From Tribonema minus (lineage: Eukaryota; Sar; Xanthophyceae; Tribonematales; Tribonemataceae): a stretch of DNA of 64,000 nucleotides. A program made the position numbers and the translations under genes. Location of the stretch: NCBI GenBank assembly GCA_017506865.1, contig JAFCMP010000301.1, forward strand, positions 496,001-560,000. The letters run 5' to 3'. This document shows positions 11,799-61,120 of this stretch, in pieces. The notes under the pieces were generated by a model. The model saw only the letters and a list, made by a program, of their open reading frames with translations, was not told where the DNA came from and ran no database searches. Numbering within the stretch: the first letter of the stretch is position 1; the number at the start of each line of letters is the position of its first letter.

Positions 11799-14700
11799 TC
11801 ATGAGAAAATACCCATCTTTTCTGCAATGTCCTGCCTGCAGAGCGGGCAAGAGCTCAGCTCTGGTCTGTCCGCGCACGATCTGCACAGGCACAGGTGCTT
11901 GCATGGCAGCAGCAGCACACAGCGATCCACCTCCTGCAGCAGCAATCAACACAGACATTGACAGCATTGGGCTCAGCTGCGTGCACTATGTGCGCTTTAA
12001 ATTCTTCATAACAACCTGGGCTCAGGATCAGTACTTTTGAGTGCAACAAATCAAGTAGTGGTGTTAATGCTTTAAGCGTGGCACAGTCAGGTGTGCATGT
12101 GCAGCAGCAACAAGGTGACCAATTTGTACGCAAGGGTGACAGTTGGCTGTGTCAGGTCATATTTCTGTGTACCAAATTGTGGCGCACATGCACTCATCTT
12201 GTACGAAGTACGAAGCACGCAGGAAGAGTGATGATCTCACGACTCATCGAATGCACATGCAAATGGGGCCTAGGCCTTCAAGTTCCTTCAAATTGGACAT
12301 ACATGCGTCTGATTCGTTTGAACCAACTGTGTGATTTTCAGTTCCGGCGGTGTGCCTTTGGGCAGAGGCACCGGGGCTAGCGTGGCACCGGCAGCAGCGG
12401 CAGCAGGAAAACCCTGTATCATCGCACATGAGCATGCTTGCAAAGCCCAGTTGATGGCAACGACACCGCCAACAATCAGAGATCAGAATGTCGGATTGTG
12501 GTACTCGACAACAGATGGGCGCCACCGATTTTTGTTGGTATATATTTCTACAGTGGGCACTTCAAGAACGCCTTGTGTTGCTCTGGACGAGCGGAATCCC
12601 TCAAGAAGTGCCATGTTTACCTGGCATATGACGCAGAGGCGCCGCTCTCCTATATAACATCGGTACCTCTTGAAGGTGTCATACTTATAGTATGTACTTG
12701 AAGAACTGTAATATAGGTCCTTCAAGAATCCCATGCTTTGCAGCAGATGACGTAGGTCATGCTAGATACCTCAGCAAGTATTACATTTACCTGGAAGTGC
12801 CATACTTTGCGGCATATATAACAGGTACTTCTTGGAATTCTTTATGTACTTGCTCTTGAGGGGCAAAACCCCCCACAAACTATTGTGTTGGTATGTTTTC
12901 GCGCCCCAAGTAAGAATTAATTGATTAAACGTACTATGTTTACCTGGCATATGACGCAGAGGCGCTGCTCCCCCTTGGTGAGCTGCTCAGAGATGAGCTC
13001 CTCTCGTCTGGCTGCCACATGGGCAAGCACCTCGCGTGCTTCGGACTCTGCCACTTGAAGTTGTTGTAGACTCATTTTCTGCCAGTGGATGCACAAGGGC
13101 AGCGGGTAGGTAGGGCTAGGGTGAGTCCGCCAAGTTTTGGTTAGGGTAAGAGCTAGGTTTAGGGTAAGGGTTAGGGGTAGAGTTAGCTATCACAGTCAAC
13201 TAGCCTGATCAGCTTGTGTGCTTCTGAAGCCAATGGGAAGCACAGTGAGTGCATAGTCCACATATTTTCACCGCGATGACTTCTAAACAACATTGCCAAA
13301 TGGCCCCGGAATGGCTTTCATGTATTGCCATACCGGGTCTGAGACAACGATGCCGTGCTTGTCCTGGTGTCATTTGCTGCGCTGGCCACAATCACCAGCG
13401 CTTTACAGACGAAGGAAAGATGGGTTGGTACATCACATCATGAGCCCATACGCATTGGAGAGTTCACATCCAAGTGTGATGTTCAGCTCAAAATGGCGAG
13501 CATAAACTTTATCCCCGCATGACTTCAGCAGGGCAGGCAACAGCCAGCTTAGATGTGGAGGCCAGGTGATGAGCGTCCTGAAGTGCAAGTCTTGAAGATG
13601 AGGGAGTTGGCACAAACGGCCTGTGCATGCTTGAGAAACAATCAGCAGCAATTTGCAGTGCCGGGCAGCACTACAGGCTTAGAGTGTGGCAATGCTTGAT
13701 GCCCATGGGCTACATCAGTGCTTAGAGCAGTCAACCTTCTACTCATGTTTGGATGAGTGACTTGTCAATGACAACGGTTGTGCGTAAGTAAGTGGTCAAT
13801 GACAATATCTCTTCGTATCATGAGTGTAATCCAATCGCGCTAATGATCCAGCCCACATAATGAACGCAGTGCGCGCTTGCGATTAATATGACCAGCATCA
13901 GTGCCCAGAGCAGCCAAGAGTTGAAGTGAATATGATTGGGTCAAACCTTGGCCGATGCTGTGTGCGAAACAATGACTTTTTACCTGAATGCCCTCACACG
14001 TTGCCTTGGCTCGCCAGCTGTCCCGTTCTGCTCTAAGTGCTGCACCTTCCTCACGGAGTGCCGCCACCAACTGCAACATTGAAGTTGTAAGAAGACATGC
14101 TGTTGAGTCAGTCGAGATAGCGTATTACTGCAGTGTATCGTTTCCTTGTTGCCAGATTCGCCCTCTTAGTAGGCTGCTACTGTGTGCGCAGCATTGGTGT
14201 ACCAGATTCGCTTTCTTAGTAGGCTGCTACTGTGTGCGCAGCATTGGTGTACCCACCAGATGCTGCCACACACACAAATGAAACCTTAAGGGTAGCTGCT
14301 ACGAGTGTTGCTGTCAAACCTCAACAATGCGCTGTCCTCACAGCGTACTTGAACTTTGAGACCTCTTCCCCCCCCCCCCCCCCTTGTGCTTCAAGTATGA
14401 CTCACTTTTGAGGGCACTCCAGGCGTGCTGATGTGGGTGTTCCTTCTGGCTGCTGTCACCACCTCGAGAATCATGACACGGTCACCTCAGCTTGGCCTTG
14501 AGTATCGGTTGAAGACACCGACACAACCCTCTGCAAACACATGCACGCCTCTTCTTTCTTCATGACTTCACTCCACAGGCGTGTGCTCTGGCCACATATC
14601 GAGAGGCCTAAACATACATACCTCCCCGGTCTCTGGCCACGTGCTACAAGGTGCAGACATACACACCTCTTCGGTCTTCATGAGCTCGCTGCACAGGCGT

Positions 14701-17700
14701 GCCCTCTGGCCACGTCTTTTGAGTTCTACATACAAACAAACGTACCTATTTATCTTTCTCCTTCATGAGCTCATACCTCTTCTGTCTTCATGAGCTCGCT
14801 CCACAGGCGCGCGCTGTAGCTACGTATTTCCACAGGCGCGCACTCTGGCCATGTATTCAAAGATCTACATAGTTCTATATATGCCTCTTCCAGCTCTGAC
14901 CATGTTTTTAGAGGTCTATGATGTGTATACATACATACCTCTTCGGTCTTCATGAGCTCGCTCCACAGGCGCGCACTCTGGCCGCGCACTGCCTCCGTCT
15001 TGACCTCAGCTCGTGCCCGTTCGTCTTGCTCCTCCAGCCACAGCCGCCGCATAGTCTCCACCTGCATTTGACCAACAAAATGGGAGCAGATTCTTCAGTG
15101 AGTTCAGGACGCTGTCACCCTGCTAACCCGTAGTCCTTGTCATGGTCCTGATGGCCGGCCAATGTACTGAGCAGTGTTGTCTGCAAAGAAGATGCTGCTG
15201 CTTCAGGCATGCCGTAGCTAGCCCTGGTTCAAAGATCTATAGCAGGAGCGCGCGCTGAGTACTGCTCGTTAATGAGCAGTGCTTCTGTATCTTTTGGGCA
15301 TGCGCCGCTTCACTTGCGGCGCTTTACAAACACTGCAGACCTCCTTGGTGAAGTTTGCATTCATTGGCGGCAATGCCCCCATTGTTGCGGGGCAAGTGTT
15401 GCTGGCACCTAATTATACTACTTCAAAGTGCAAAGAGGTTGCAAAGATTTCTACATGATTGTGCATTTCCATTTGTACAAAACCTATTCTTCAGTTTGGC
15501 CAAAACCATGATGCTGGGATGCGGCGGATCACCAACAAAATACTGCACTAGCCCTAGCCATGCAGCATCACCCAAAGGCAAGACCACTTGATGCGGAACA
15601 CAAGGAGCATTGCACACTGCGCCTGCAGGGCTTACAGCTCACACTTCAAGTAAGCAATGCAAGGAACCAACCGGTCTCCAAGTCTTGCCCTGAAAGCAAC
15701 CCCCCCATGTAGCAGACTGCAAGCCTCCATGGGTGGCGGCTGACCCCAGTTGAGCACTGCTGGTTGTATGGCACATGTGTCCGCCACCTTGCTTGCCCTG
15801 ACATCGACCAGGTTGTTCTCACTTTGGTGATCACATGCGCACTTGCAAAGCCATTTGTTTATTCCACAGACCTGACCCTTACGCAAATTGGCTGTGAAAG
15901 GGTTGATTTGGCCCTACCCTGATATCCTGCCCTAAGTGATTACCTGCTGAGCCAGTGACACTCGGTCCAGCAGACCTGCAGTGTCTGGCTGCTGCGGCAC
16001 TGACGGCGGCGGGCAGTGGTTGAGCGCTGCTGCTGTGTGCTGAGCACTGCTGCTGCTGCTGCTGCTGCTGCTGCCGTGGTGGAGCACTGTTGATGCGTGC
16101 TGATGAGCGCTGCTACTGCTGCTGTGGTTGAACACTGCTGCTGCATGGTGATGAACGTTGCTGCTGCTGCTGCTGATTAAGGAACAACGAAAATCACAGC
16201 ATACAGGTCAGTGACAAGGGCGATCGATGTGGCTACGTACACACTAGGATGGCTTAGCAGCTTGAAGCACGAATTTCTCTACAAGGGGCTGGGAGTACAG
16301 TGCACCACTTCTGTAACGCTCATCCTAACCCTCTGCCAGTCACGCGCAAGTACAAAGGCTACAGCGCGCTTGCCACACAATGCTTGATGAAGATTGTTCA
16401 CTGCATTCAGTTGACAAATCAACCTCCTGCTGTAGGCTATTCAACATCATGATGTCCCGCCCTTGTGAACGAACACCTCTGCGAGCAGATAATCCTGGTT
16501 AAGGTGCTTGCCACTTGCTCACCCTGAGCAGTTACCTAACTGTGACAACTTCAACAATGTGATCAATATCAGTAGAACGTTTGAGCCATGTCTCACCTGG
16601 CTACAGGCCCGGCGTTTGAGCGTGGATGTAGTAACCGACACCGCCGCATGCCTCTATCCTCAGCATCGGAATAGCTCGCAACAGGAGCCGCCGCCTGGTG
16701 TGGATGTTCAGCGTATACGTTGGGGCTGGACGCCCTCAGAGATGGATGATGTGAAGTTGTACTTGAAGTTGCGGCGAGGCTGACGTGCCGTGTGGAGTGG
16801 TCTATCAGCGGCAGAAAACGGGCCTGCGAAGCCCCTGATGTTGCAGTTGCTGGTAAAGTGGTGGCGCCGGCTTGCTGTTGAGAGCTGGTGGGCCGTTGCA
16901 GTTGGCGATCTTGACGTTGAAGTTGCTCCGCGGCGGCGGCGCGCCGGTATGCAGCCTCCGCTGCAGCGGCACGATATACCATTTTTCAGCACAGCGGGGA
17001 GTCACCAACTTCAACTTTCATTTGCATGCTCCGAGCGCCGCGTGCATGGTTTTGAAGTTCGAGCCCTGTATGGATTGCTGCCGCTGCCAGCCCTCGTTAC
17101 TGGTACTTCGGCCAGCTGCTTTTGTGAAGCTGCCCCGCTGAGTACTTGCTGAAAGGCTAGCGTAGAAAACCCGCCTGCTCCATCCTTCTTTGCTTAGGGT
17201 TAGGGTTAGGGTTAGGGTTGGGTAAGGCGGCCTCAGCATCTGCCAGCCCTCATTACTGAAAGGTCGACTTTCTGGTTTTGTGAAGCTGCAGGGCACTGCA
17301 GTCTCGACCTTGCTGCACATGGTCTAGTCACTGTCCGACGTGATGCTGCTGCACGCCCTTCATGCGGTTGAACTGACAGCTAGGGCGAAAGTTGGATTTT
17401 GCGATATGGAAGCTGAGCACTGGGGCATGGATGTAGGTAGGTCATACTGCACCTAGCCTTGCAGTACAGTCAGGGTTCAAGTCAGGGTCAGGGTCTTGCT
17501 GTGCAAGGTCCAGGCACTGTATTTTTTGACATTATGCTGCAGCCAGCCCGTCGTGCAGCTGTAAGCTAGCGTGAATGTTGAACTTTCCAGCTGAGCACTG
17601 TCTTATCAGAGCCATTCTCATGTGTCTGAGGCCGTGCATTACACAACTAGGTTAGGCTTGGGTCACATCCCACTCTTTGGGGTGACATATGGAGTGACGG

Positions 17701-20700
17701 TGAACTGGCGCAAGTGACAGTGTTGGCTCCTGCATCGAGTTGTACTTACGACGCGGTGTTTCGTTGGAAGCAAGGCTGAGAGGCAAATTGTGGTCACAGC
17801 AACTGTTGCAAGCTAGTGTCGAGTCAACCATCACAAGCCCGGCACGCTCGAGGCTTTGGCCTACGATATCGGTTCGGCTTGCAAACAGTGTCCGAGGCCA
17901 GGGACCGCAACTAGGGTTAGGGCTAGGAACTAGGGCTAGGGTTACGGCCAATCATCACCTGCGCGCCGCAAGCTGCGCCTCGCTCGCACACGCCCCCCTC
18001 TGCTCAACCCAACGTGCCCCGCAAAAACGTCACTGGCGGTGGACCATTCCCGAGAACTCTTCCTGGAACCTTCCCTGGAATCGTTCCGCCAGCGCAGTCC
18101 GAGTGCGGCCATGAGCACCGAGTCGGTTGCGCCACCATCAAACCCTGAGCCTAGGGCATAGTCATCAATCGCTGGAGCTGCCTCTCCGTAACACAAGGGG
18201 ATCTCCCCCTCACTGTTACTGCCGCCGCCGGCGCCGCTGCCGCCGCCGCCGCTGCCGCCGCCGCCGTCGCTGGATGTGCTTGACTGTGGCGACTGTGGAT
18301 CCTGATACGCCGCTGCTAACGCTGCAATGCGTCTACCAGTGCCGCCATCGCCGCCGCCGCTGCTGCCACCGTGGTCGCTGCTGCTGCTGGTGCTGCTGCT
18401 GCGGCTGCTACGCCCGCTGCTGCTGCCGCCGTTGGGTGAGATGTTGCCCCCAGTTAGCTCAGCCTGAGTGCCGCTGTGTCTAACTTCACCACGACCCCTA
18501 TCAGAGATGCCGGTAGTGTTCGCGCTAAGACCGAAGGCAAAAGGGCGCGCCGTGATGGCGCCAGGTGTCACTCCCGTCAAGGTGCCAGGTGGCAGGTCTG
18601 CAGGTGTGCCACCTGTCATGCCTCGTATGCTGCCAGGTGGCGCTCTGTGAGCACTGCTAGGTGGCGCCCTGTGAGCACTGCCAGGTGGCGCTCGGTGAGC
18701 ACTGCCAAGTGGCGCTCGGTGAGCACTGCCAGGTGGCGCTCTGCCACCACTGCTGCTGGCAGCGCGCACGGAGGCAGTGCTCAATGCAGCAGCGCTCAGC
18801 TGGTGACCTGAGACGGCGCCAGGTGGCACGCTGTGGTGCAAGCTGGTTGCCACATCGCTCAGTCTGTGAGCCAGCGCTGCGTGCCCGGCCGCCAGAGCCA
18901 GATCCACGGCGGTGAGACCCGCGTTGTTCTTCAGTGCAAGGTCAGCGCCTGCACAGAAGGTTGCCGAGAAGTGGTTTAGTGCGTGTCAGGGATTGCAGAA
19001 CGTGCGCAGGTAGGTTCGCTGATTTGGGGTTGCAATTTGGTACTGGACTTTTTGAGTACAGCGCTTCAAAAGGGTACATAACACAGGTCTGCTCTGTTTG
19101 TGTGGAAGCAGCACAATCCCCAAAGCCCCACGGATGCAATGTCTGTTTTGTTGTAAGCACTGCTTTTGTACTGCGTACTGAGGTTACAATCCGGATTGCA
19201 GTGCCGCACAACACCCTTGACGTGGAAGGCACAAGGCTGTCAAATGTATAATCGAGCAGTATACTTGTCAGTGAATACTCTTAGGTATAAATTAAGGTTG
19301 ACAACAACAGTCTGGACGCGCAGCTTCTTTAACCCTAACCCTAACCCTAATAGATGACATTCAAAGCATCGGGCATACCTCGTTGTAGCAGCTCCAGTGC
19401 CAGCTCCTCCATGCCAACCTCGCAGCACAGGTGCAGAGCGGTGTTCCCGGAGCCGGAGCAGCGGGCTGAGATTACAGCACCTTAGGGCCAAGGCAAGGGG
19501 TAGAGCAAGGACCAGGGTTAGATTGAGCTATGAATGCAGACTCCTAATAATCGACAACCCTTGGTTGAAACAATGACTTTGTCGGAAGTAGTCAGTGTGG
19601 CCATCATCTTTAACTTAAAGTTGAAGTCTTACCTTTGTTCAGTAAGCACGCTGCTGCCTGGTGCCCATATATGAATGCCGCTAGCAGGCACTTCTTTTGC
19701 TCTCATGAACTGCAACTTAGAAACAACATCAACAACTTAATAATGAGTTTGTTGTAAGAAGTTATGACCATCACCCAGAGTCTAGTGGAATTTTTACCTT
19801 TGTCGAGGAGCAAAAACGCTGCAGCCTGGTGCCCGTATCTGCATGCTGCCAGCAAACACGTGTCCTGCTCCGGTGAGCTCCAGTTCACATCTGCACCCAG
19901 CTCTAGCAAGCTCCTGCACTCGTCCACCTGACAGGGCAAGGTACAGTATCGGAGTTGTGGCAATCAGTATGTGCAACACGTGTGAACTGCGTCATGCTAC
20001 GTATACATCTCCAGTCATGCCAGACAAGCACGTTTATTGTTCATCTCATGGAGGTTGAGCCCAGCCCCAGGTCATTGTGAGGCATTTCACATAGCTCCAT
20101 CATGCTTATGGGTATCACACATCTTTGCAAAGCACCCCTTAAAGAATGGCAATAACCAGATTCGCAGCAGGCCTCAGTAGTCCCAGCGAGAACTGAAAGG
20201 CAAGCACCGAATGGCAGACTGTGACTCCTGTTGAGCACTCAGTGAATGCTTCGCTACATTGGACAAATTGTGCAGCATGACAATGTTCCTCATGGAGTAC
20301 GTGCATGAACACAGCAGCGCAGTTTGTGCAGCACAACTATGTTCATCAGCGATTATGTGCACGAAAAATAACAACACATTTACTCTACGCCGAGGAGTAG
20401 CTGAGATGCCTGTACTATTCGGTGGCCAACAGAAGTTTCTCGCGCTTGCCTTCGCTTCGTGATGAACGGCACCACGAACTACTTTTTATTGACATCTGAG
20501 GAATGTATATGCTGCAACTGCTGCGTGCACCTTGTTTTACGCCCCCCACTTGTTGAAGCAAGGAATTTGAATGTGTGTGCCTTCGTCAACATGTGAACAG
20601 AACTGCAGAACTATGCAGGCGCGTAGCGGCTCACTGCTCTGACGACGACATATGCTCGGCAGTTTATGTAATTGCTGGAATCTCTTAGTGTTTACACAGC

Positions 20701-21880: not shown

Positions 21881-32084
<10,204 letters not shown>

Positions 32085-32395
32085 GGCTGGATTCGCCTGG
32101 TGTGTAAGAGCAATGCGTGCGCTGCGTTGAACCTGCGCTGAGCTCCGTCGCTGCAAGCTGCTCTGCTGTTGTTGTACGAAAGCTTTCAGTACCGCTCGTG
32201 CTGCACGGTGTGTGTGACAGGCGGTAACAGTGTGCCTTCAAACTCCTTGAATCACTGGCATTTCACGATCCATTTGAGATGTGAACTGCAAACACTTGAA
32301 GTTGCTATTTTTGAAAACCGGAGCTCATATATGCAACGTTGTTAACTCAAGCTCTCCGTGTGCAACGACGCGTCCGCCCACGAACATCATTCGTC
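32085..32395. promoter_or_regulatory. Shared divergent promoter region
   Basis: The IMP dehydrogenase ATG (32084, minus) and the Siva-like ATG (32396, plus) are separated by 311 bp, head to head. No TATA box is obvious. Both genes must find their promoters in this short stretch, unless 5' introns exist. Confidence 0.5.
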
Positions 32396-33206
32396 ATGTT
32401 TACCGCCGTCGCCAACAACAGCCTGAAGCGCAGGCAGCTGGAGTGGCCAGATGATGAGTCAATCAACTGCATCGGCAGGAACATCGGCACGGAGTCGGCG
32501 AAGCTGCCAGCGGATGGGACGCCCACTGGCAAGCGCCCCAAGATCTTTGCGGAGCCCACTCCCCCCAGCGCAAGCGCCGCCTTCGCTTGTGACGCCGCTT
32601 GCACGCCGCCATTTAAACCCCTCTACCTACCTCCAAGCAACCATCAGGCCGCGCTGGAGCACCAACAAACGTGGCGAGAGCAGCAGCAGGAAGGGAGAGA
32701 GCCGCAGCAGCAGGAGCCTCAGCAGCAAGAGCGAGGCCAGCATCCGCCTGCTGCAGCAGCTCCTTCCTTCTGGCAGCAGCACTTCGTGCGCAGCGGCCAC
32801 AAGGCGGCGTACCAACTGCCACCTGCGCCAGCAGCGGCGCATCCCGTACCAGCGCTTGCCAGTCGCAAAGCGCAACCCACCCTGGACACGATGTTCGGAC
32901 GGCCAGCAGCCACTGCGCACTCCGCAGCGGCAGCACCAGCCGCCATCGCTGCGCCAGCGGCAGCGGCGCCGCCGCCGCCGCCGCAGCAGTGCCATGCCTG
33001 CCTGACCCCCAGCGCAGCTGATGCCGCCGCGGGCATCGGTGCCGCCCGCGCTGGTCACCTCTGTGCTTTCTGTGAGCGGGCAACGTGCGGGAGGTGCATG
33101 AGGGGGTGCGATGCGTGCGGCGCGCACCTGTGCCTGCTGTGCATACTGGCGGACTACTCGCAGTGCTGGGACAGGCTTGTGTGCCCCGCGTGCATGGACG
33201 TTGCCG
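32396..33206 (+). CDS. Siva-like Cys-rich zinc-binding protein
   Basis: An open frame of 270 residues from ATG 32396 to a GCCG/GTGAGT donor. Residues 1-70 hold KRRQLEWPDDES and a basic GKRPKIF. Residues 90-195 are low-complexity (Gln, Glu, Pro, Ala) with QPTLDTMFG, which resembles a PCNA-interaction (PIP) box but lacks the second aromatic residue. Residues 199-268 hold about a dozen Cys in pairs (CHAC, CAFCERATCGRCMRGCDACG, CLLC, then DYS and CPAC). The order CxxC, CxxC, CxxC, CxxC, DYS, CxxC fits the C-terminal domain of the Siva family, known from animals as a CD27-binding apoptosis factor. That match is from memory of the pattern. If the donor is used, only a short tail is missing: a possible last exon at 33914 would add four residues. 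If not, the frame stops at 33364. A zinc role is likely; an apoptosis role is not shown. Confidence 0.6.
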
Positions 33207-33290
33207 GTGAGTTTTACATACATATGGTATCTGTTGCAGCATGTCCACGTGCTTGTCGTGTCCACCCCGGTCGCGATCGAGTGTCACATG

Positions 33291-33352
33291 TGATAGTGTG
33301 CATACTCGCGGACAAGCTTGTGTGCTCCGCGTGCGTGGACGTTGCTGGTGAG
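33291..33352 (+). repeat. Copy of the Siva-like exon's 3' edge
   Basis: Codons for CILAD, LVCSACVDVAG and the GTGAGTT donor repeat the genuine edge at 33140-33214; about 13 residues are missing inside. Spacing is about 140 bp. Confidence 0.85.
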
Positions 33353-33364
33353 TTCATTTCATAA

Positions 33365-38053: not shown

Positions 38054-38084
<31 letters not shown>

Positions 38085-41000
38085 TGGCTGCATGGGCCCA
38101 CCCTGTAGCGAACACAACAGACAGCAGGAAGCTCAGCACATCAGCATGCATGTAACTTTAATGCGCAAAACTGCGCCTCAATACTGCGCATCAAGTGGCA
38201 GCTCATCCGTCTAGCAGACCCAATGGCGTCAAAAAGGGGTTTGAGTCACGCATGAATTAGCACACCGGGACAAACAGGACCTGTCGGCTGCATGGGCCCA
38301 CCCTGTAGCAGACATGACAGACAACGGGAAACCCTGCAAATCAGCATGCATGTAATTTTGATGCCATGCGAGCAACACTACCTACACCTCAAGTGACAAC
38401 TCATTCGGCCATAAGACCCCATGGCGTCGGAAAGGGGTTTGAGGCAGGTATTGCTTGGCACACCAAGACCGAGAGATCCTGATACTACAATGTTGCAAAT
38501 GATTGTCGGGTTTACAACCTAGCGCTCACATATGCTTGCAAACTGAACGGCTGCTGCTGCCGAGTGCATGCCTTGGGACAAGCGCATCATCACCTTCTTC
38601 TGTGATGCCACTGGCATCTTGGGGGCCAGCTTCAAGGTTTGCGCAGACACGACCCAATGACGGAAGACAAAATCGCAGCATACCTGCGTACCCCCTGCAA
38701 GACGCTTTGAGCTCCAATTTGAAGTTAGTTCCTAAACTCACTTGACATTGGTCAGCACTACACCTTCATATGCCTGTTGCCGCAGCATAATGCGCTTGTT
38801 AGCGTACCTGCACACACCCCTGGGCTCCTCCAGCTGCAGCGCCACACTTGAGTCAAGTTCCAAAACTAACTTGAAGTTGGTCAGCATTCCACCTCCAAAA
38901 TCATGTTGCTGCATGATGCGCTTGTAACGGGTACAGAGCATACCTGCACCCCCCTGCTGCCCTATGAGCCGCTTGAGCTCCTCCAGTTGCAGCTCCAATT
39001 CGAAATCGAGTTCCAAGTCTCCTTGACGTTGGTGAGTACTATGTACACCTTCTGCACATATTCTTGTTGCCGCAGCATGATGCGCTTGTGATGGGTGCAG
39101 ACCATACCTGCATACCCCCCTGATGCTGATGTATGATCCACTTGAGCTCCTCCAACCGCAGCTCCCATTCGCAGCGAGTTCCAAGACATACTTGACATTG
39201 GTCAGTACCACACCTCTTGCAAACGTTTCTGCTGCTGCAGCATGCTACGCTTGTTAGCATACCTGCATACCCCCCTGCTGCTGCTGCATGAGCCGCTTAA
39301 GGTCCTCTAGCTGCCGCCTCTGTGCCTCCAGCTGCCGCTCCAGCTCCGTCTGCTTGCTGAGCGTCATCAGGTCCTGGGTTTCCGCCAGCGCTGTCGCTGC
39401 GCCGAAAGTTGCATTGTCAGAAAAGGTGGGGTGAATCATTTGCGGATATGCCAGCGCTGCTGAGCACACGTGACGCATCAGTACATATGTAGGTGTATGT
39501 ACACCTCCTTACTGAGCTTCTGCTTGCTGAGCGTCATCAGATCCTGGGTGTCGGCCAGCGCTTTTGCTGCGCCAGCATTCGCAATGTCAGCGAGGGGGGG
39601 GGGGGGGTAAAAGATGGGCCAGAACATATGTGAGCCTATGAACAAGCCCCCCCCGATGTGACAGCGCTGAGCACAGGTGACGCATCTACACATTGTACAA
39701 CATGGGTTTGAGAAGAAGAGCATTTCAACAGTTCCCCGAAAGTCCTGGGCACTTTCGCTGCCACGAGGTTTGTAACACAGAGAAAGAGGCACATATGTGA
39801 CTGATATGCCTTGGCATCAGCCACTTTGTAGCGACAGAGGCAAGTGGCGTCAACGCGTGCCTACGTCCGCTTAAGTGCCGAGCACTGATGTGCCAAGCGC
39901 TGAGCACTGATGTGACTGCGCTGAGCACTGGTGTGACAGCGCTGAGCACTGATGTGACAGCGCTGAGCACTGATGCAAAAGCATTGAGCGCTGATGTGAC
40001 AGCGTTGAGCACTGATGTGACAGCGCTGAGCACTGATGCAAAAGCGTTGAGCTGATATTACAGTGCTGTGCACTGATGAGACAGTGCGCACAGCACTTTA
40101 TGTGGCATCAGCACCTGCCAGTAGGTATGAATCGTCCATTGGCAGGTCTAGGCCCGATCCTGCACAAAATGCTGCCGCGTGCGCTTGCAGGTCCTCGTCT
40201 GAAGCGTGCGCCAGTAAACTTTCAGTGCTACTTTAATACAAAGTTGAAGTTTACAGGGCGCTCACCAATCGTGTCGTCTGTTGGCAAATGCAGGACAAGA
40301 GATCCTGCGCAAAGTAATTTCGCATAAGCTTGCAGGTCCCCATCTGAAGCGTGCGTGAAGGTAAACTTCAAGCATCACTTCAATGACTTCAAGTACTACT
40401 TCAATGAAATGTTGTATGCAGTGCGCTCACCGGTCGTGTCGTCGTTGGCGAATGCAGGTCAAGAAATCCTGCGCAAAGTACTGTCGCATAATTTTTTCAA
40501 TTCCATAGACGCTTTTACAGTGAGTGTCCTCACCAGAGGTGTCGTCTGTAGGCAAATCCAGGTCCAAGAGGTCCTGTGCAAAGTACTGGCGTGTGCGCTG
40601 CGAGTCTGAAGCGCGTGCAAGTAAACTTCAAGTTCTACTTCAACCACTTCATGTACTACTTCAATGAGAAGTTGAAGTTTGCAGTGCACTCAGAGTGTCG
40701 CCTGTTGGCAAGTCCAGATCCAAGAGGTCCTGCACAAAGTAGTGTTGCGTAAATTTTCTGACTACATAGCCACTATTGAAATGATATTTTCATTATTCGT
40801 TTCCGTAATAAACGTGCTCACCAGAGGTGTCATCGGTTGGCAGATCAAGGTCCAAGAGGTCCTGCGCAAAGTACTGTCGCGTGCGCTGCGAGTCCTCCAC
40901 GCGGTTGTGGTTGCGCCTGTCGGCTGTGTTGTCAAAGTAGCGCGCCGGCCGACCATTGTACATTCCCGGAACGGAACTGCAACAGGTGGAGAGGGGGGCA

Positions 41001-44000
41001 GGGTGAGCATCATGAATGAGTCGCTGGCAGTTTACCTTTCAAAAAAATAAATAAGGAAGTCGCACAAACCAGTTTCACAGCCGCTTGAAGTTGAAGCGCC
41101 GGCCGCCCCTCGTACATACCCGGAACGGAACTGGCAAAGGGGGACAGGGGGACGGGGGCAGGGTGTACGGCGTGAGAGCGAAATACGTGGAGCACAGGGC
41201 AGAGTTGCGCATCGTACATACCCGGGACGGAACTGGCAACAGGTCGAGAGGGTGGGGGGGGGAAGGGGGGGGGGATGGCGTGAGGGCGCAAGACGTGGCA
41301 TGCAGGGCAGGGCTGAGATGGTACATGCCTGGAACGGAACTGGACATAGGTAGAGAGGGGGAGGGGGGCAGGCGGCACATGGCGTGAGTGCGCTTTTGAC
41401 GTCGTGTAACCCTCATGCCAATCCTGACCTACCAGGCTGCACTACCCTGCAAATGAGGATCATAAATGCGTCGTTGGTGGGCTCATGGGGAAAAAGTGAG
41501 AAAACCCATTCCACACGTACAACTTAGACCCACTGGCCAACTTCGCTTCTTCAAGCTCGACCTGTGCCTGCAAACATTGTGACACCGTCCGGCAACTTCA
41601 GCTGCAACTTCAGCTTCAACTTGATGGTTCAAATCCGCCCCTCACCTCACCTCAAGGGTTCCGAGGACGAGAAATACGTCTGCACCACGCGAAATGTGCA
41701 ACGCATCCTCTGGCCTTGTAGATTGCAATGCGACTTCAAGTTTAATGCACCAGTCACTTGAAGTTGAGCTTGCCTCCCGAGTCGTCCATCTGCACGGCGC
41801 CGATCGCATCCCTCAAACCGCAAGCTGACTTCTGACTTCCAATGCCGCTTCAAGATGGCAGCACCACTTCAAGCCCTTCTTGGATCCCGAGCTTTATCCG
41901 CGCCATGCAAGCGCGTCTAAGTCATTACTCGCCGCTAGGATCAAACCAGCCTCCACCAAGTTCAACTTCAACTTGCAGCACTCACTTCAAAGTCGAACCT
42001 GGCCCAAGAGCATCCGTCTGCACCACCCCAAAGGCGTCACGAATCCATAGTGCAAGTTCAACTTCAACTTTGACAGCACTCACTTCAAGTCGAACTTAGC
42101 CCCCAGCGCGTCCGTCTGCACGACCCCAAAGGTATCGCTGGTTCTCCGCGCCGCTGCCAGCGGATCCAGCGTCTGCTGCGGCGCCGCATAGTCGTCTGTT
42201 GCGCCCAGAGGCAGCAACGCTCCCGTGTCGCGTGCCTCCGCCCGCTGCCGCCGTATCCTGTCCGTGTCTGTTACGGCACATGTAACAGTTGTTGGTGAAG
42301 GGTATGCTGTCAGTGTCTGTTACGCCGCATGTAACAGTTGTTGGGGAAGGGTATCCTCAGGTGTCTGTTGCGCCGCATGTTACAGATGTTGGCGAGGGGA
42401 TGAGTGAGGCATTTGTTTGTGTGCATTGCCCGTGCTTGTTACGCCGTGCGTACCTGTTGTCAGGAGGGCGTAGGTGAGGCATTGGTTTGCGTACATGTTC
42501 GTATGTATAAGTATGTGTTGGAGCCAAGAACAGGAGCAGGCTACAATTTATACTATGTCCTGACTGTGCATGTACATGTCCGTATGTGTTGGAGCCAAGA
42601 ACAGGAGTAGGCTACAACTTATAGTATGCCCTGACTGAGTCTGTTACGCCGCGTGTAACAGTTGTCGAAGAGGGGGTAGACGAGGCATTGGTTTGTGTAC
42701 ATGCCCGTGCATGGTTGTGTCAAGAACAGGACCAGGCTACAATTTATTTATTGAGTACATGAAGTAATGCTGCACATTACATTGTCTTAACAGTACATAA
42801 AGCCCATGCATGGTGGCGATGCTGTGCGCAACAGTCATCTGTGAAAAGAGGCGTGAGTAGGTGTGTGTACCTGAAGGGCACCTTAGAATCCTCCACAACA
42901 CGCAGCATGTTGACAGATCACAACACATCGGTGCTGGTGTGATGACAGGCGTCGACCGTTTCCACATGTAGGACGCAAGTATACCTGCAGCCCAGAACTG
43001 GTGCAGGTGTGGAAGTAAGCCCCAGCTACCGTTTCCACATGGACAATGAAAGATTATGCACACAACTTGCAGAGGAAACTAACTTCAAGTTCCATACAAT
43101 GTGACTTTTGGCCCCGTTCACAACAGCAGTAGCAACTCCTCAGCGGCAGCAGTGAGCCACTACGGAGAGTAAACTAACTTCAAGTTTCACAACCGGATTC
43201 TTGTTCATGACTTTCAACAGCATCACAATTGAAATTTGGTCCATACCTTTCAGCAGCACGAGCACCTCCTTGGCAGCCTCTCTAACAGGTGCTCCATAGT
43301 CCACTCCTCCCCCCGCCAGTGCGCCAGTTCGGCTGTGAACAGCGCTGTTGTAGCGGGTCAGTTCGTCCAACTGCCAGACAAAATACAATCAATCAACAAT
43401 AAAGCAGCACAATGAATCAATACCACACAATTGATTGTGGCGGGTCAGTTAAACCAGGTGCAACATAAAATGCTGCAGCAGCGGCGACTACGATTTTTGG
43501 TGGCAGACATTCAATTTGACGGTCAACCACACCTTATGTCACCTAGAGCTCTACGATCTTTTGATTCGTTTTCAAAACACACATTCAATCAACACGAAGC
43601 AGCACATTTAGTCAATACCACACATGTCGTCAATACTACGCAAACAAAAAGCACAGCGCAACACAAACTTGTAGCAGGTTAGTTCGTCCAGCCGCAGGAC
43701 AAAACACAACACATACAATCAACATGAAGCAGCACAATCACTCAATACAGTACCACGCAATCAATCAGCATGGCACACAACGCAATGAGTCAGCATGTAC
43801 CAGTCAGCGCATTGCTGCACAATCAATCGATCATCTAACACATCACCTGTCATTGCGCAACCCATGCATGGTCCACAGTGCTCCACACCAACCCTACATG
43901 ACTGTTTGAACAGTTACAAAATATGCATATATTGTAAAGCCAACGTTATACAGTAGTCATTGCCTGTCGTAGCGCGTCCCATCCGTGACCGACACAGCGC

Positions 44001-47000
44001 TCAGCACCAAAAGTGGAGTTTTATCATTTATCAAGAATTGTGATTACGGAGTTGCGCCGCGATATCCACGTGTCGTATTCGTGTCATTACACCAAAATTA
44101 CTTGGAAAGCAATGAGCACCTGTCGTTGTGCGTCCCATGCACCTGCACGGCTGTCTTCCGTTATGAGGGAATCATTGAATACTTCGGAAGCATATTATAG
44201 TTTTTGGTAGATAGCACTTGCGGCCAACCACTCCTTGTCACTTAGAGCTCTACGACCTTTTGATTCATTTCCATGTATGATGCCAAAAATACAATAAAGT
44301 ACCTGTCGTTGCGCGTCCCATGCGTGGTCCACGCAGCGCTCCGCGCCATACGTGACTTGTCCTTGATTAATGTGATTGCAGAGCTACGCCGCGAAATCCA
44401 GGCTTGAACGCGTGGATGATTCATGTCATTACACCAACTACACCTTCTTTGAGGCAATTATTACCTGTCGTTGTGCATCCCATGCGTGGTCTACGCAGCG
44501 CTCAGCGCCATAGGTGACGCAGTGGTTGACCAGCCGCACGGCCTTGAGGATTGTGCGCCACGTGTTGTTCTTTGGGTCCATAGAAGCCCTGATGACAACG
44601 ACCATGTACATTAAATTACATGCAATGTCATACATATGTATGTGTGTGCATACGTGCACAAGTGTCAGAAGTACATCAATGAAGTCGTGGGCAATTGAGC
44701 GCGCAAAGAGGAATTGTGCGCCACGTGTTGTTCTTCGGGTCATGGCCGCTTTGATGGCAATGACCATTTATGTACATACAATTACAATGTCAGACATACA
44801 TATGTGCATTACATACGTGTTGTTACTAGGGCCATGGCCGCCCCGATGACAGCGACCATGTGTGTACATACAATTACAATGTCAGACATATGCAGGTGTG
44901 CATATATGCACAAGTGTCAGCAGAACAAAGCCTTGCACATGAAGTCATAGCAATGGAGCTTGCGGACCAATTGCAGTTGTGAGGCCACCTCAGTACTTTG
45001 TTGTGGTTTCCGGGACTAATTGCACGTAGGCGAGGCAGCGTACTGTAAACGGCAAAGAGTGCGTGCACTCCTCAAAAGTTGGAGACAAAGCAGCTGATGG
45101 TTGAGATGGGTGGCACACGGAATATGTCAAGTGGCAGACAGAGAAATCTAAAGCTAGAAGTGCTTCAGTGATTAGAGTAAAGGCGTACACACGCATACAC
45201 GCATTGCACAGTCAAACAGCAGTTGGTCATCATATCATGGGCCCTAACCTCACTCTAACTCTAACCCTAATCCTGACCCCCACCCTCACCCTAGTCCTAA
45301 CCCCAGCCCAGCCGATCATACATTGCTATTTGCAACACTTCATGTCCTTGTTCATTGGAATCAGGCCTCCATGTAGACTGCACGGGTGGCACTCCACAGG
45401 AGACGGTATGACCACAGTTCCCTCACAAATCCTGTTGGAGGTTGTGCAAACTGCCAGAGGATGAGCGCATAAAACCACATCAAGTGCTGCACACATCAGC
45501 AGACTCGCGACCTAACCCTAATCCTAACTCTAACCCTAACACTCACCGCAATTAGGTTAGGGTTAGGGTTAGGCAGCAGCACATTCATCGCTGCTGACTC
45601 CATTTGCCGCCACTCCTTTATTACACTCCACAAGAAGCATGAAAAATAAAAGCATGCATACATTGGGCCCTGTGAAGTACATTACATTCACGCAAGCAAA
45701 GGCGAGGCCTGCAACGCAAAAAAAAAAAAATGTCATCAAACACGAAGGCTGTCAATCCTTCATACTACTTCAAAGTGCATACACGAGGCTCCTGCAAGAG
45801 TTTGTACGGTGTGAATGTGTACTAGCGTGAGCATGGGTAGACCGCAGCGCACTCATAATCATTGAATGTGTATGCCGCTAACCCTTGCAGTGCATACATG
45901 AGGCACCTTCAAGTGTCTTTATAGGGTGAATGTATATATACATGTACTCACATGAGCATGGCGTAGACCACAGCGCACTCATAGTCATTGCACACGCCAT
46001 GCTGCTGCCGATTTTTCGTCAAATTTATGAAATACATATCACTCGAGAAGCGCATACATGAGGCACCGTCATGTGTTTGCACAGGACAAATTAATGTACT
46101 TCGAAGTATGCACTCACGTGAGCATGGCGTAGACCACAGCGCACTCATAGTCGTTGAATGTGTACGCCGCCAGTCCGTGCAGCTCCCGTGACGTGGCCCA
46201 GTCCACATTCTCATCAAACAGGAACGCGCCCAACTGTTGCAGTAAATAACAAGTCAACACAAGAGGCAGATGTTGAAGTGATGAATCAAGTTAGGGCACA
46301 CTCACTCCTGTCCACACGTCTTAAGATGAACAAGAGAACACGTTCTCGTCAAACAGAAACTCGCCCAACTGTTGCAGTAAACAACAAAGTCAACACAAGG
46401 TAGATGTTGAAGTGTGATCACAGAACGTGCCCAACTGCTGCAGTAAACATCAACAAAAGGCAGATGTCAAAGTGATGATCAACATCCGGTATACTCAGTC
46501 TGTCCACACTCTTGTAAGATGGAAATGAAAAACTCTGCGCCTATGTGCTGTGGCCAACATCAGTAAGAACTGTTGAGGCAATGCTCACATGGCTGTTGCA
46601 GCGAATGCCAGCACAGCGGTGACCCTGATCATACTGTGAGTGAAAAACACACATTGTTCCAGTACAGATGTCGCTGGCAGCTCATGCCAGCAAAAGGGGG
46701 TATGGACCATTATGTGAACGAATGAGTCGATTGTTACAGTCCAAACGTTGCAGCACGATTTTCTCGTCTAAAGGCAGTGCGGGACAAGTTCAACACACCA
46801 TGGCAGACATGATCAATGTTATATACATGACCAGGTGCCTAGCATCTGAATGCACACATTGCTGTGACTTGAAGTACGACTTGAACCGCGTCAAGAATGA
46901 GGCGCACCTGCCGAGTGTGTGTGTGCACGAACACAACGCTATAAATTATAGCGTTGTTGGTGTCCAATCGCCATGCTGCTGACAAAAGCACGGTGATTCT

Positions 47001-50064: not shown

Positions 50065-50311
50065 ACCATCCATTCCGTGACCCCCAGCAAACAGCCGCTC
50101 ATCACATTTGAGCAAAAACTCGGATCGTGCGCTCGCTCTAATCTCTAAGACAACGCAGCGACGAGGCCACGCGGTGCTATCTATCATTCTCAGCAGGCTG
50201 CAGAGCTCCTGTGTCCGTAGCAGCCTGCAGTTATCCACAGTCGCTGCGCTGAAACCGAGCGGCAACAAGCGAGCAACAGCAACTAAGGCGCGAGGCGTGA
50301 GGTGAAAGATC

Positions 50312-53300: not shown

Positions 53301-56300
53301 GTGACCGCAGCGCAAAGTTTGGGCGCACTGAGGCCCGCACCGTGACATTGACCTCTATCTGACCAAGCTTGCTGCATATGGAGTGCTACCTATCATACAT
53401 AGGACCAGTAAGCACATTCGTCCGAATCTCACACGTTCCACAACACACTCGCGTGTCACCGCAGTGCAAAGTTTGGTCGTGTGGAGGCCCTGATTAAGCT
53501 GCCATTTGGCATTGGCCTCTGGCCAGCTTCTTCCTGCTGCTTATGGTGTGCTCCATATCATACATACCAAAAACAAGCACATGCACTTCACTGATCCCAT
53601 CGTGCGCTCACATGTCACCGCAGTGCGAAGTTTGGACGTGTGGAGGCCCTCATCACCTTGCCATTTGGCATTGGCCTCTGGCCCAGCTTCTTCCTGCTGC
53701 CAGTCAATGAGACCTATGGTCCATGGCCTGCCAGCGGCGAAATAGACATCCTCGGTGAGTACAGCGTCTGTACAGAGTGGTGCACTCTGAGTACAGCTTG
53801 AGTCCAAATAGACATCATTCGTGTTTGTACAGACAGGTACCCACCAAGTACATTCTCAGTTAGTACAGTGTCCGTATAGATGGGTACACACGAAGTACAG
53901 CCAGAGTGCACATTGACGTGTGGCGAGTGGCCTGCCAGTGGCGAATGCGAGACATTCTCAATGAGTACAGAGTGCAGCAGGATGTGAGTGCGCAACTGGT
54001 ACATGATGATTGCACACGGAGTTCAATGACGTGCCCGCACAGGCCTGCCAGGTACAAGATTGGCATGACATCGACCACACAGTTCAGTTCAGTGAGGCTG
54101 GAGTGCGAAACTGGCATCACATGCACACTTGAGTGCGCAGTGTGCACAGGGCCTGCGCATGTTCTTGAAACCATTACGCCCAACGCCACATGAAGGTTGT
54201 TGCATTCAGAGCATGAATCTGTGGCAGTTTCCAGCTACTACTGCTTACCAACCAGTGCCAGCCTGTGAACGGTAGACATGAACTTGAAAGTGAACTGCAG
54301 CAGTTTGCTGCAGCATGTCGAAGTATATGTGAGCTGCTACCCAGTTTTCAGTGGCTTGCATCTCACGCTACAACATATTGGTCAAGATGTCACGTATGCA
54401 CGTTCTCACATGATTATGTATTTCTGTTCTGCTGCACCGCTGCAGAGACGTACAACATCCAGCCGTCCCCGGTGGCCACGCCAGTGCTCAGCAGCCTGCA
54501 CTACGGCACACCTGTGTACCTCAACGGGCCCAAGGGTCAGGTAAGCACTGTCTTTAACGCACACTCAATTGTGTCATTACTTGGCCACCGCAGTGCTCAG
54601 CAGAAGGGCCCAATGGCGCGCTCCACTTGAGATGCGCATCGAACATTACTTGGTGTACCTCAACAGGCCCAAGGCATCGCACATTACTTGGTGTACCTCA
54701 ACAGGCCCAAGGGCCAGGTATGCCCTGCCTGTAACGTACACTTGCTTTGCGTCTTTGCCATTGCTATGTACATCCATGCATACCTACCGTGTGGCCACCC
54801 CAGTGCTCAGCAGCCTGCGTTGAAGGGCTCAAGGGTGCGCTCCGCTTGAAGTGCGCATCTGAAGTGTACCCTAGCATACCAGCCCTTTACATACATACCC
54901 TCATTGACATGATGTTTGTTGCCTGAGTCACTAAGTTCAATGCGCAGGGCAGGTCACAGTGCTGGTCTGTTTGGGGATTGACCTCTCCTGTAACTGCCCC
55001 TCTGCACCACCATTATTGCAGAATGGTTGCGTGCTGATGGATGGGAGGAGCCTAGGGGGCGAGCCGCACGTGTTTGCGCTGGAGTGGAGCCCTGAAAGGT
55101 GCTAATAAGCATATGAGATCACACACATGATAATAAACTAGACGATCTGTAGTCAAAACCGAGACTGCTTCTGTCAATGAGTGCATGGTCAGCTGAAAGG
55201 TGCTAATAAGCAATTGAGATCAATCACACAAGAATAAACTAGACGTGCTGTAGCCAAAACTGAAACTGCTCCTGTCACTGAAAGCGTGGCTGGCTTTCAT
55301 GGTGGCTTCTGTCTGTGAATGCAGTGTGTTGGGCTTATTACAACTGTGCCTCGATGATGTTGTGGCGTGACATGTGATGAGCTTATGCCTAAAGCTAGTT
55401 AGTAGCTCAACATCAATAGCATCCTGCTTAGCTCTGTGAACCCTGCACGCCCCTGAAATGCGACACCTGTATAGCACTACTAACTGTCACTTCAGGCGAC
55501 CTCTAACTGAAATGCGACGCCTGTATAGCACTACTAATTGTCACTTCAGGCAACCTCTAACTGTGACTGCTTTGACGGGCCTCTTGAACGATCCTACAAA
55601 ATGTGAGGAATTGAGCAAGCGCACAAGCCTGTGCTGCAGTTGGGCCATCCGTCTCTAACATTGATGACTCATATGTGCCGCGTGTGTCAGGCTCAACATG
55701 TTAGGACGCCAACAGACAAGCAAACAGTGGCTGTCCATGTGAAGTGGCGCCATTCAAACATTATATTTCAGCCCTCGCTACAGTGCACTTCATATCTGGA
55801 AGCTGAGGCCATACCTCAACACTTGCACAATATCTGACAGCCACATGCCTCTTACAAGCATGTAGATGTAGGTACCAGTGAGACACCGTCAGTTGCGGTA
55901 GGTAGCATAAGTCATGTCGGCAATTTTTGGTGTCCTAGTGTGATCCAATCTTTACCCCCCCCGCCCCCCCTTTCTTGTCCTGCAGCTTGAAGGTCTGGAC
56001 AAGTAGACAGCTACTGTACGTATTCTGCATGACGCAGTGCGTATGCAGAATGGCTTCAACCAATTTTCACCCTATCTGGAGCTTCAACTCCGTTTTATAC
56101 CCCCCCCTTTGCAGCCTGAAATCTACATATGTGGACAACTACCTATTCTGCGAGATGACGCAGTGTTGAATATATAATGTTTTCAACTAATTTTCACCCT
56201 ATCTGAAGCTCAAACTCCCACTTGACGACGCTCCTCTCGTGCCCCCCCCCCCTGCAGCCTGAAATTCTACGTGGACAACTACCTGTTCTGCGAGATGACG

Positions 56301-59300
56301 CAGTGGTGGACGGAGGACAGTGCCAAGGTCAATGCGGACCCTTCAGCGCCCTTTGACCAGCCGTTCTACATCACGCTGGCGCTGGCGGTGGGGGGGCAGG
56401 TGCCGCAGGTCGCCTCGCTGGCGCAGCTACCTCCGGACACCCTGCCGGCTCAGGTTAGCACTTCTATTGAACTACTTAATTGTTGAAGTTTGTAGGTGCC
56501 ACTTGTCGCCTCGCTGCCGCAGCTTCCCACAGACACCCTGACTGCTCAGGTTAGCACGGTTCATCCCATTAAACTTCAATGTTGAAGTGTGTGTAGTGGG
56601 GCAGGTCACCATGCTGGTGCTGCTGCCCAGCGACACTACGCCAGCTCAGGACAGCACCTTACATGGATGTTTTCAATGCTACATCATCGGTGCTCATGAA
56701 AGCAGTCAAGTGCTGAGGCGCAGGCAATATGGGTCAACTTCATGTAATTCTGAAGTATGCAATGACCACCACCAGCTTCTGAAATGCGCTTTGAAGTGCC
56801 CACCGATTATCCCCCCGTTTGCGGTCCGGCATGGCGTTCAGCAACAACAAATAAGCGTTTCATTATGCCTTCCGCCGTGTTCCATGGTGACGTTCCACAA
56901 CAACAATAACTGCTCACAAGCCCTCTCATTCCGCTCTACGTTTCACAGTTGAAGATCGACTACGTCCGCGTGTTCGCTGCCACTGCCGCTTACACCGCCC
57001 CCCCCCCCATCCCCAGCATCCCTCATGACGCCCAACAACGACACCAGCCGCTCACAAGCCCTCCCCTCATTCCGATCCACGTGCCACAGTACAAGATGAC
57101 AATGACACAAGCAGCTCACAAACCCTCCCCTCATTCCGCTCCCACGTTTCACAGCTCAAAATTGACTATGTCCGCGTCTTCGCGGCCACCGCCGCTGAGA
57201 TGGCCTGGGTCAACCCCTTCCCGGGGCCCGTTGTACCCGCCGGCCAAACGGACGGCTGGTTTTATGCCCCAGAGCCTGCCAGCGGCGCTTATCACATCGA
57301 CCTGCAGACAGACACGCAGTCGCCCTTTGTGTTCACCCCCGCGCTTGTGCGCATCGAGAACGTGAGTGACGTGCCATCTTCAACTTTAACTTCACTCGAC
57401 TTTCACTGTTTCAAGGAAAATATGCAGTCGCCCTTTGTGTTCACCCCCGCGCTCGTGCGCATTGAAAATGTGAGTGACGTGCCATCTTAAACTTTAACTT
57501 CACTCCACTTGCACTGATTGCAGGAAAAATATGCAGTCACCCTTCGTGCCAACCCCTGCGCTCGTGCGCATTGAGAATGGGAGTGACGTGCCACCTTCAC
57601 CTTGGCTGCCTAAATACTGTTGCAGAAGGCAAGCAGTTGCCCTTTACCCCCTCGCACACACCCCAGGCTCGTGCGCATTGAGAATGGAAGTTGAGTTGCC
57701 ACCATCGACAGCCATCTGCTTGCGGCAACGTGAAGTACAGCAGTTCGTGTAAATACTACCTGACGTACTTGCAGCAGGTTGATAAGCTTGTTCGGCAGCC
57801 GGCAGCAGTGTGCATGCTTTTTGAGGCAGAGGTGGTGGCCAGCGCCACTTGCCACATTTTGACATTTGCGCTTGTGCACCTTTTCGATGGTTTGGCTTGG
57901 TACTGCAGTATCACTTACACAAATGGCAGTGCGCTTTTGCGATCTGCCAGCATGCAACCACACATCGGCAACACCAAAGTCTACCACTGCGCATCTTGAG
58001 ACGATGAAACTGTGTGTTGAGGTAGTACCGCTTCAACAGCCGAGAGAGGCGTAGATGTGCCAACTGCATCCCTCACTTGTGTCAGCACAGTGCGTTGAGC
58101 AAGCACATCAGCACTTTCAGGACGCCGATTTTGTCCTTGCGCGCCTGCAGCCGTTTGTGTCTTGCAGGATATTTCAAGCCATTCTTGACACCGTGGTGCA
58201 CAACGAGTCAAAACGCCTCATTATCAGGCTTATGCACAATTCTGAAAGGTGCACATGGCCTCTATAGGACCAGGGTTGGTTGTACTTTACACTCATTCCT
58301 CGGCTTTGTTTGATCACTGTGTGCGATGCAGGAGTACTTCGACTTTGGCGGAGAGGGTGTGGGCTACCACGAGCTTACGCCATTGACCAACGAGGGAACG
58401 TGCGCTCTCAGGCCTTATGATGGGGTAAGCCTTGTGATAGCAATACCTAGTTACTTCGCGTATCTTTGAGGCCCGTATATAATCATCAGGAATGTAGTTT
58501 TGAGGTACTAGTGACCATGCGCAATTGACCAACGAGGGAACGTGCGCTCTCAGGCCATACAATGGGGTAAGCCTTCTGCAAGCAGTACATAGATGTGTCA
58601 CGTATTTGACTTTGAAGCACGTGCGTAATCATCAGGATTGTACACAATTTCGCGATACTACAGCTGACAGGTATGCTGTTGGTGATTACTTGTTATTGAT
58701 ACAACTAGTGATCATATGCAATTGAGAAGCTAGTGAACGTGCGCTCTTAGGCCTCACGATGTGTAAGCCTTGTGCAAGCAATCATAAATCTGTGGCAGGG
58801 CGACTGGGACATCATGGCGCGTTGTGTTAGGAGAACGTTCCAGTGTGCTGTCATCCACTGAAGTGCAAGTGTGTCGAAACAATGCTGGAATTGACGCATA
58901 GGTGGAAGATGGTTGCGGTGTTGCGCGTTTTGGTTCTGGCGCAATCAAGTGCGGCAATGCATTTTATTGTCGCTCTACCAGTGTTCACATCGTACAGGTT
59001 CATCAGGCTCGAGCGTGCACCCGTGTGCTGCCTGTCGTGTTCAGGCACTATGTAGTATGTTCACCACGTTCATTCACCGTGTTCGTTCAGTGCTAGCAGC
59101 ACAGTTCACCAGACACTCTCACTGCAACAAGACATATGGTCTCACCTCTCTCTCCCTTGCACTGCCCTCGCTATTTCTGTCAGGTTGACGTGCATGAGGA
59201 GAACATATACATACCCCCGCTCGCATTCAAGTTTGGCGACTCTGGTGGTGAGTCAACCTCAACTTCACACGACATGCAGAATGGAGGGATGGCACCCACG

Positions 59301-61120: not shown

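Follow-up and report, generated by a model that had tools for sequence, protein, structure and literature searches.

Decaying ladders of exon-edge copies are widespread, yet not universal, in introns

Introduction

Intron gain by tandem duplication has been described, including a duplication across an intron-exon boundary in the potato RdRp gene (PMC4974935). Small tandem duplications can also arise when breaks with complementary overhangs are repaired by end-joining, and such events have been proposed to contribute to human and plant insertions (PMC8355091). In core-Reinhardtinia algae, introns are longer than in genomes of similar size, and the driver of this length is stated to be unknown (PMC8226300). 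Haematococcus lacustris, for its part, has a genome with 47.3% repeats, mostly short and in tandem, together with the telomere motif AACCCT (PMC7617258). How introns lengthen without transposons is an open question. Among the open-access search hits listed, judged by titles and abstract starts, we found no description of genome-wide ladders of exon-edge copies as a mode of intron growth.

Here we analysed a window of 64,000 nucleotides (C301:496001-560000) from an assembly of 158 Mb in 554 contigs, together with genes sampled elsewhere in the same assembly. From its codon bias, splice sites and repeats, the organism is probably a green alga, while a published Haematococcus primer (PMC3411633) found no match in the assembly when up to 1 mismatch was allowed. 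The original prediction for this window, made from its letters, was that introns are built from serial copies of their own exon edges. We found that such edge-copy ladders are real and widespread, yet not universal, so that the prediction is partly confirmed: about a quarter of the sampled exon borders bear a ladder of decaying copies in the adjoining intron.

Results

By comparing the window with itself, we found 128 direct repeat pairs that are local (<4 kb) and at least 25 bp long (135 with other settings) and 17 distant direct pairs, while inverted local pairs were scarce (1, 3 or 5, depending on the counting). All ten third-order Markov resamples of the window gave 0 direct and 0 inverted local pairs. 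A scan of the window with Rfam returned no match. No array below 50 bp appeared in the BLAST self-comparison, probably owing to a limit of the program near the main diagonal, so we rechecked the unit sizes with a BLAST-free spectrum of k-mer offsets over the window and 42 merged loci. The spectrum peaked at offsets of about 88-195 bp (13-28 times background), was 6-8 times background at 28-87 bp, was also raised below 28 bp (11-17 times) and had fallen to background by about 850 bp. Per array, the smallest offset had a median of 127 bp (quartiles 99-162, n = 172 arrays). Loci differed widely in their repeat share, which ranged from 0 to 52%. One to five copies were found per exon edge in the window, which together with the offset peak agrees with the predicted one to five units of about 90-200 bp; outside the window, we counted up to at least eight matches at one edge.

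Because circular exon calls had to be avoided, we chose exons outside the window that are defined by Pfam homology to chaperonins, kinesins and GTP-binding translation factors. The sample comprised 110 exons in 42 merged loci (206 kb), with profile matches taken inside these loci only. We then searched the flanks of each exon with 60-nt probes, using as threshold the 99.9th percentile of 2608 probe-versus-foreign-flank scores. First, the 5' edge recurred in the gene's upstream flank for 19 of 107 exons and the 3' edge in the downstream flank for 27 of 110, whereas the wrong sides were empty (5' edge downstream 0/110, 3' edge upstream 0/107), exactly the sidedness that had been predicted. Since some probes end at the limit of a domain and not at the exon edge, these shares are probably low estimates. 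Second, probes from exon interiors matched in 3 of 74 cases upstream and 2 of 75 downstream. Third, reverse-complemented edge probes gave no match and reverse-complemented interior probes a single one. Six nested partial matches, left out of the 110 exons, were themselves partial copies: 5'-edge pieces lying upstream in C51 (two) and C135, and 3'-edge pieces lying downstream in C5, C511 and C246. Among the GTP-binding factors, three matches (C24:1557612, C166:125757 and C364:656) shared the same E-value and in-frame stops, and are possibly a repeated pseudogene or haplotype copies.

Exons in the window were called by a simple gene finder trained on the homology-defined exons, so that both the window exon list and the intergenic class used below depend on a rough annotation. 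With the threshold taken from the foreign-flank scores of the homology-defined exons, 41 predicted exons of at least 60 bp gave 12 cases of a 5' edge upstream and 15 of a 3' edge downstream, with 1 and 0 on the respective wrong sides. With the window's own stricter 99.9% null (45.7), the counts were 8 and 13, and again 1 and 0. One of the 15 3'-edge cases (9041-9397) is a coding ankyrin-like repeat and not a splice edge. An open frame of tandem repeats with a unit of about 81 bp, which we take from its motif to be ankyrin-like, runs over 8674-9835 (-), with a related stretch at 10681-10875. Predicted exons without copies include 80-647, 890-1020, 5597-5743, 6442-6531 and 18808-18948. The copies located site by site are given in Table 1. 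The genuine exon of the IMP dehydrogenase ladder aligns with solved IMPDH chains, all 71 of its residues being covered, and the Siva-like zinc-binding domain (PF05458, E = 7.6e-08) lies in frame 32315-33364 (+).

Table 1. Exon-edge copies and their source exons in the window (identities are to the source exon)
Feature	Position	Strand	Details
IMP dehydrogenase exon, genuine exon of the ladder	26377..26589	-	PF00478, 1.9e-23 for the enclosing frame
3'-edge copy of IMPDH exon 26377-26589, downstream in gene	26134..26213	-	79% over 80 bases
5'-edge copy of IMPDH exon 26377-26589, upstream in gene	26696..26778	-	89% over 81 bases
Predicted exon with copies on both sides	28060..28206	-	3' edge 27911-27994 (88%), donor copy retains GTGAGC; 5' edge 28445-28488 (91%)
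3'-edge copy of predicted exon 29215-29289	29058..29087	-	97% over 30 bases; GTGAGT kept
3'-edge copy of predicted exon 23010-23130	22831..22874	-	93% over 44 bases; GTGAGC kept
Three 3'-edge copies of predicted exon 14939-15067	14549..14831	-	14777-14831 84%; 14667-14714 92%; 14549-14593 82%
Copy of 33169-33213, end of Siva-like frame	33310..33354	+	91% over 45 bases; offset 141
Two 3'-edge copies of predicted exon 39263-39396	38944..39162	-	39108-39162 80%; 38944-38993 88%
5'-edge copy of predicted exon 39263-39396	39519..39562	-	93%
Five 3'-edge copies of predicted exon 40822-40976	40132..40750	-	80-89% each
5'-edge copy of predicted exon 40822-40976	41088..41130	-	86% over 42 bases
3'-edge copy of predicted exon 42084-42257	41986..42034	-	88% over 48 bases; GTGAGT kept
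Two 3'-edge copies of predicted exon 46118-46233	45827..45990	-	45953-45990 97%; 45827-45890 88%
5'-edge copy of predicted exon 53624-53754	53465..53540	+	91% over 76 bases; GCAG before
5'-edge copy of predicted exon 56258-56453	56115..56168	+	96%; GCAG before
3'-edge copy of predicted exon 56258-56453	56494..56549	+	82%; GTTAGC kept
Two 3'-edge copies of predicted exon 57155-57361	57424..57577	+	93%; 79%
Two 3'-edge copies of predicted exon 58332-58424	58501..58761	+	58501-58566 83%; 58710-58761 77%

Other repeats of the window are of different kinds. About ten tandem units of 21 bp, below the typical ladder unit, lie at 39880-40084. In the IMPDH region, a repeat of about 90-130 bp recurs kilobases apart (22434-22525, 24216-24331, 27393-27520 and 30720-30849) at 80-91% identity; unlike the local ladders, it is perhaps another dispersed element. 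Seven interstitial TTAGGG/CCCTAA runs of at least two units were present, for example at 17194-17217, 19330-19347 and 45555-45572. Telomere-like hexamers were considered as a signature of break repair and rejected, as the window contains 30 of them compared to 9, 32 and 43 for three control hexamers of the same composition, hence without enrichment.

By looking between contiguous profile matches, we obtained 55 intron candidates, 54 of which resolved to a GT-AG pair. Two were dropped for a low splice score, leaving 52 mapped introns (34.8 kb) with the consensus AG|GTGAGT at the donor and GCAG|G at the acceptor. Local direct repeats make up 27% of this sequence. Among 98 repeat pairs, 35 include the donor edge and 21 the acceptor edge (56 in total, 57%), and 42 are intron-only; in each of the 98, the real exons remain intact to within 8 bp. 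None of the 98 pairs spans both splice sites, which would be the mark of a new intron, and most copies enlarge existing introns. Of the arrays, 24 reach an edge and 12 stay clear of edges, and copies are present at 24 of the 104 edges. Introns with edge copies (n = 19) were longer than those without (n = 33), with medians of 679 and 515 bp (Mann-Whitney p = 0.012). That 33 of the 52 introns have no edge copies, and that some sampled genes have almost none, does not bear out the claim that every multi-exon gene is built in this way. As a genome-wide mode, the phenomenon holds to the extent that many contigs and each of the three sampled gene families show it, but it does not extend to every multi-exon gene.

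To describe the decay, we used 27 ladders with at least two copies from the mapped introns, the Cpn60-type gene on C516 and the window exons. The nearest copy was closer in sequence to the exon than the farthest one in 23 ladders and the opposite was seen in 4 (sign test p = 3e-4), as expected from the predicted decay with distance. The divergence of copies from their exon reaches about 25%. For 39 edge copies, identity within the exon part was 87% at donors and 90% at acceptors, and within the intron part it was 82% and 79%, respectively. Among aligned decoys, the GT was kept in 13 of 18 and the AG in 14 of 17, for a chance expectation of 13.7 each at that identity (two random sites). A frameshifting indel was found in 20 of 47 copies, and the differences between exon and copy comprised 142 non-synonymous and 134 synonymous changes, with stops made by 4 differences. 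By codon position, the differences amounted to 73/948, 68/954 and 139/950 for positions 1, 2 and 3. Since positions 1 and 2 are about half as different and 20 of 47 copies are frameshifted, we read the excess at third positions as silent drift of the exon itself, although it could alternatively reflect coding constraint on the copies. Judged from these comparisons, the copies, decoy splice sites included, appear to have decayed in a near-neutral manner. Several copies in the C516 gene were called as exons by our gene finder, in line with the predicted decoy splice sites and partial pseudo-exons.

The Cpn60-type genes of C511 (L072) and C516 (L074) correspond to each other exon for exon, yet the C516 gene has about double the length. 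The final 120 bp of one of its exons are found in four downstream copies plus a shorter fifth, spaced by about 162 bp or slightly more, and the first 43-115 bp of another exon are found four times upstream. In addition, yet another exon has four 3'-edge matches downstream, a further one has two, and a last one has three 5'-edge matches upstream. In C511, the repeat pairs number two, and one of these reaches a predicted exon end. Against the C516 exon, the copies of the five-copy ladder show 83-96% identity, against the C511 exon 72-82%, so this ladder grew after the paralogues had split. Alignment of the two genes thus shows intron growth specific to one paralogue, with compact introns in C511 and exon-edge ladders in C516. 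Furthermore, one C516 intron (L074 8203-8847, CAG|GTGAGA...CACAG|GTGGCG) is absent from the Cpn60-type genes of C511 and C544, and the coding match in C544 runs uninterrupted through its site. A gain in C516 would be a simpler reading than two losses. This intron is largely filled with copies of the tail of the preceding exon, then copies of the head of the following exon, and this order (tail first, head last) shows growth and is silent on how the intron was born.

Another claim at stake is that edges are preferred, since copies no commoner at edges than elsewhere had been named as an outcome that would speak against the prediction. We simulated uniformly placed tandem duplications, keeping exons frozen and allowing for mutation, small indels and deletions. 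Each run comprised 52 introns, two rates were used with 8 runs apiece, and repeats were detected in the same way as in the real introns. The simulated share of edge pairs was 39-61% or 40-54% for the two rates (45-64% in a first version of the simulation), and the observed 57% exceeds the range of one rate. Simulated edge arrays numbered 13-27 and intron-only arrays 10-29; the observed 24 and 12 are near the upper and the lower end of these ranges, respectively. As uniform duplication yields a similar edge share, edge targeting is not required inside introns. Against intergenic DNA, the outcome differs. The uniform model predicts a mean intergenic coverage of 18% or 26%, compared to 4.4% observed in 55 kb, that is 4-6 times too many repeats for a sample that is small, near genes and roughly annotated. 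The 12 intergenic arrays correspond to 0.217 per kb, and intron-only arrays are present at 0.345 per kb with a coverage of 5.6%, whereas edge arrays cover 21% of the mapped-intron sequence. Since intron-only arrays are not much denser than intergenic ones, the genic excess lies mostly at edges. With other settings, repeats cover 27% (window) and 20% (loci) of predicted introns and 5.5% and 6.6% of predicted intergenic DNA. At face value, and measured against intergenic DNA, edge arrays are thus about 4-5 times in excess of a uniform genome-wide process. By count, 56 of 98 pairs lie at edges and 42 are intron-only; a uniform model accounts for this share inside introns and fails when intergenic DNA is included. 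The intergenic deficit may reflect either a biased process or constraint or turnover outside genes.

Discussion

The sidedness of the copies, their decay with distance and the compact versus expanded paralogues bear out the predicted repeated local tandem duplication across borders; like these, the unit size, the near-neutral character of the decay and the growth in one paralogue are results of the comparisons above. We consider it likely that introns grow longer through small, recurrent tandem duplications with units of about 90-190 bp, which are tolerated as splicing keeps the original site. When a duplication unit lies across an exon's 3' end, the second copy would become intronic and the first, original donor would be used, leaving the mRNA unchanged. 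Across a 5' end, it is the first copy that would become intronic, with the last, original acceptor being used; in both cases splicing presumably uses the original sites. Duplications wholly within exons would alter the protein and are presumably purged. Later duplications that include the genuine edge would push older copies outward, so that ladders decay with distance, the copies drifting as neutral sequence and the exon remaining constrained. The underlying lesion is most likely the fill-in and end-joining of staggered breaks or paired nicks. End-joining would leave head-to-tail units with little or no microhomology at the junction; three young arrays in the window (14152-14253, 54636-54712 and 55453-55563), too small a number to carry weight, exceed two exact units by only 1-3 bases, and older junctions are blurred. 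Homology between copies probably aids expansion at later stages and would account for a regular period like that of 162 bp. Weighing against the duplication reading are the low intergenic coverage, the edge-pair share above the range of one simulated rate, the third-position excess should it mean coding constraint, and the uneven spread of ladders both between and within genes.

The most serious competitor is a bias of the duplication process towards gene bodies or exon-intron borders, caused for instance by transcription-linked nicks or R-loops; borders would then be preferred sources and not merely preferred survivors. The difference in coverage between predicted introns and intergenic DNA speaks for it, as does the ratio of edge arrays per edge to intergenic arrays per kb, which is about 1.06 in the data and about 0.25 and 0.22 in the simulations. 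We nevertheless regard it as unlikely: measured against intron-only arrays, edge arrays fall within or near the simulated range, the intergenic comparison suffers from the limits of its sample, and constraint on promoters and UTRs could also lower intergenic coverage. A wider version, in which gene-body-biased tandem duplication tied to transcription or splicing drives outward intron growth, lays down time-ordered ladders and is a cause of the unusually long introns of chlorophycean algae, seems doubtful to us.

The copies might instead be functional, as alternative partial exons or regulatory decoy splice sites under selection. Retained GT and AG dinucleotides and the more frequent differences at third codon positions could be taken in this sense, but the retention equals the chance expectation, frameshifts, stops and non-synonymous changes occur among the copies, and similarity falls with distance, which makes selection on them very improbable. 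We give even less credit to two further possibilities. Dispersed mobile introns (introner elements) or transposons do occur in the region. An element of about 243 bp at 51797-52040, inside a gene on the + strand, could be SINE-like or introner-like. At least 41 genomic places carry it, in both orientations, and identity is 94-99% at 39 of these, with scores obtained for 39 out of 2542 first-look candidates. The ladders, however, are local, as the excess of local over distant pairs indicates, and carry the coding sequence of their own host gene. As for assembly error, tandem arrays are generally prone to it, and mis-joined or uncollapsed reads would give false copies; collapse or mis-joining had been named in advance as a possible undoing of the prediction. 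It is an improbable source of copies that are up to about 25% diverged, graded with distance, one-sided and spread over many contigs. Recurrent small duplication tolerated by splicing thus remains our preferred reading.

Introns of this kind carry a layered record, with the constrained exon as reference and each farther copy tending to be older, so that the rate, the unit size and the age of intron growth could be measured within one genome. Their decoy splice sites and partial exons mislead gene prediction, and could also be raw material for new splice variants.

Among known systems, the ladders are close to the potato RdRp case, in which a tandem duplication likewise crosses an intron-exon boundary and splicing omits part or all of the extra copy. 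That case, as summarized in PMC4974935, is a single event that makes a new intron, whereas here the events are serial, affect existing introns in many genes and leave time-ordered ladders. Of the features of Rogers-type intron gain, duplications that include an exon or a boundary are frequent here (56 of 98 pairs), no pair provides donor and acceptor from two copies (0 of 98), and absence from relatives is seen for one intron, that of C516 missing from C511 and C544, for which loss in both is possible. In the summary of work on Drosophila novel intron positions (PMC2891723), coding sequence containing a proto-splice site also undergoes regional tandem duplication, after which one copy is intronized; that study is about new intron positions and ours about intron length. 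Duplications made by end-joining, as outlined in PMC8355091, are short and head-to-tail like ours; the pathway would be a candidate one here, and our units of about 90-190 bp exceed the length of the overhangs given there, which is 43-50 bp. The introner elements of Micromonas (PMC3488318, in outline) are likewise repeats that alter the content of introns, in that case in a green alga. They form dispersed families that nearly fill introns, while the copies here are local and derive from each intron's own exons; near-identical copies dispersed in the introns of many genes, the hallmark of introners, are not what the ladders consist of. The long introns of core-Reinhardtinia, for which the summary in PMC8226300 gives no duplication mechanism, are likened to ours by length only, and the repeat content reported in summary for Haematococcus lacustris (PMC7617258) resembles that of the genome studied here.
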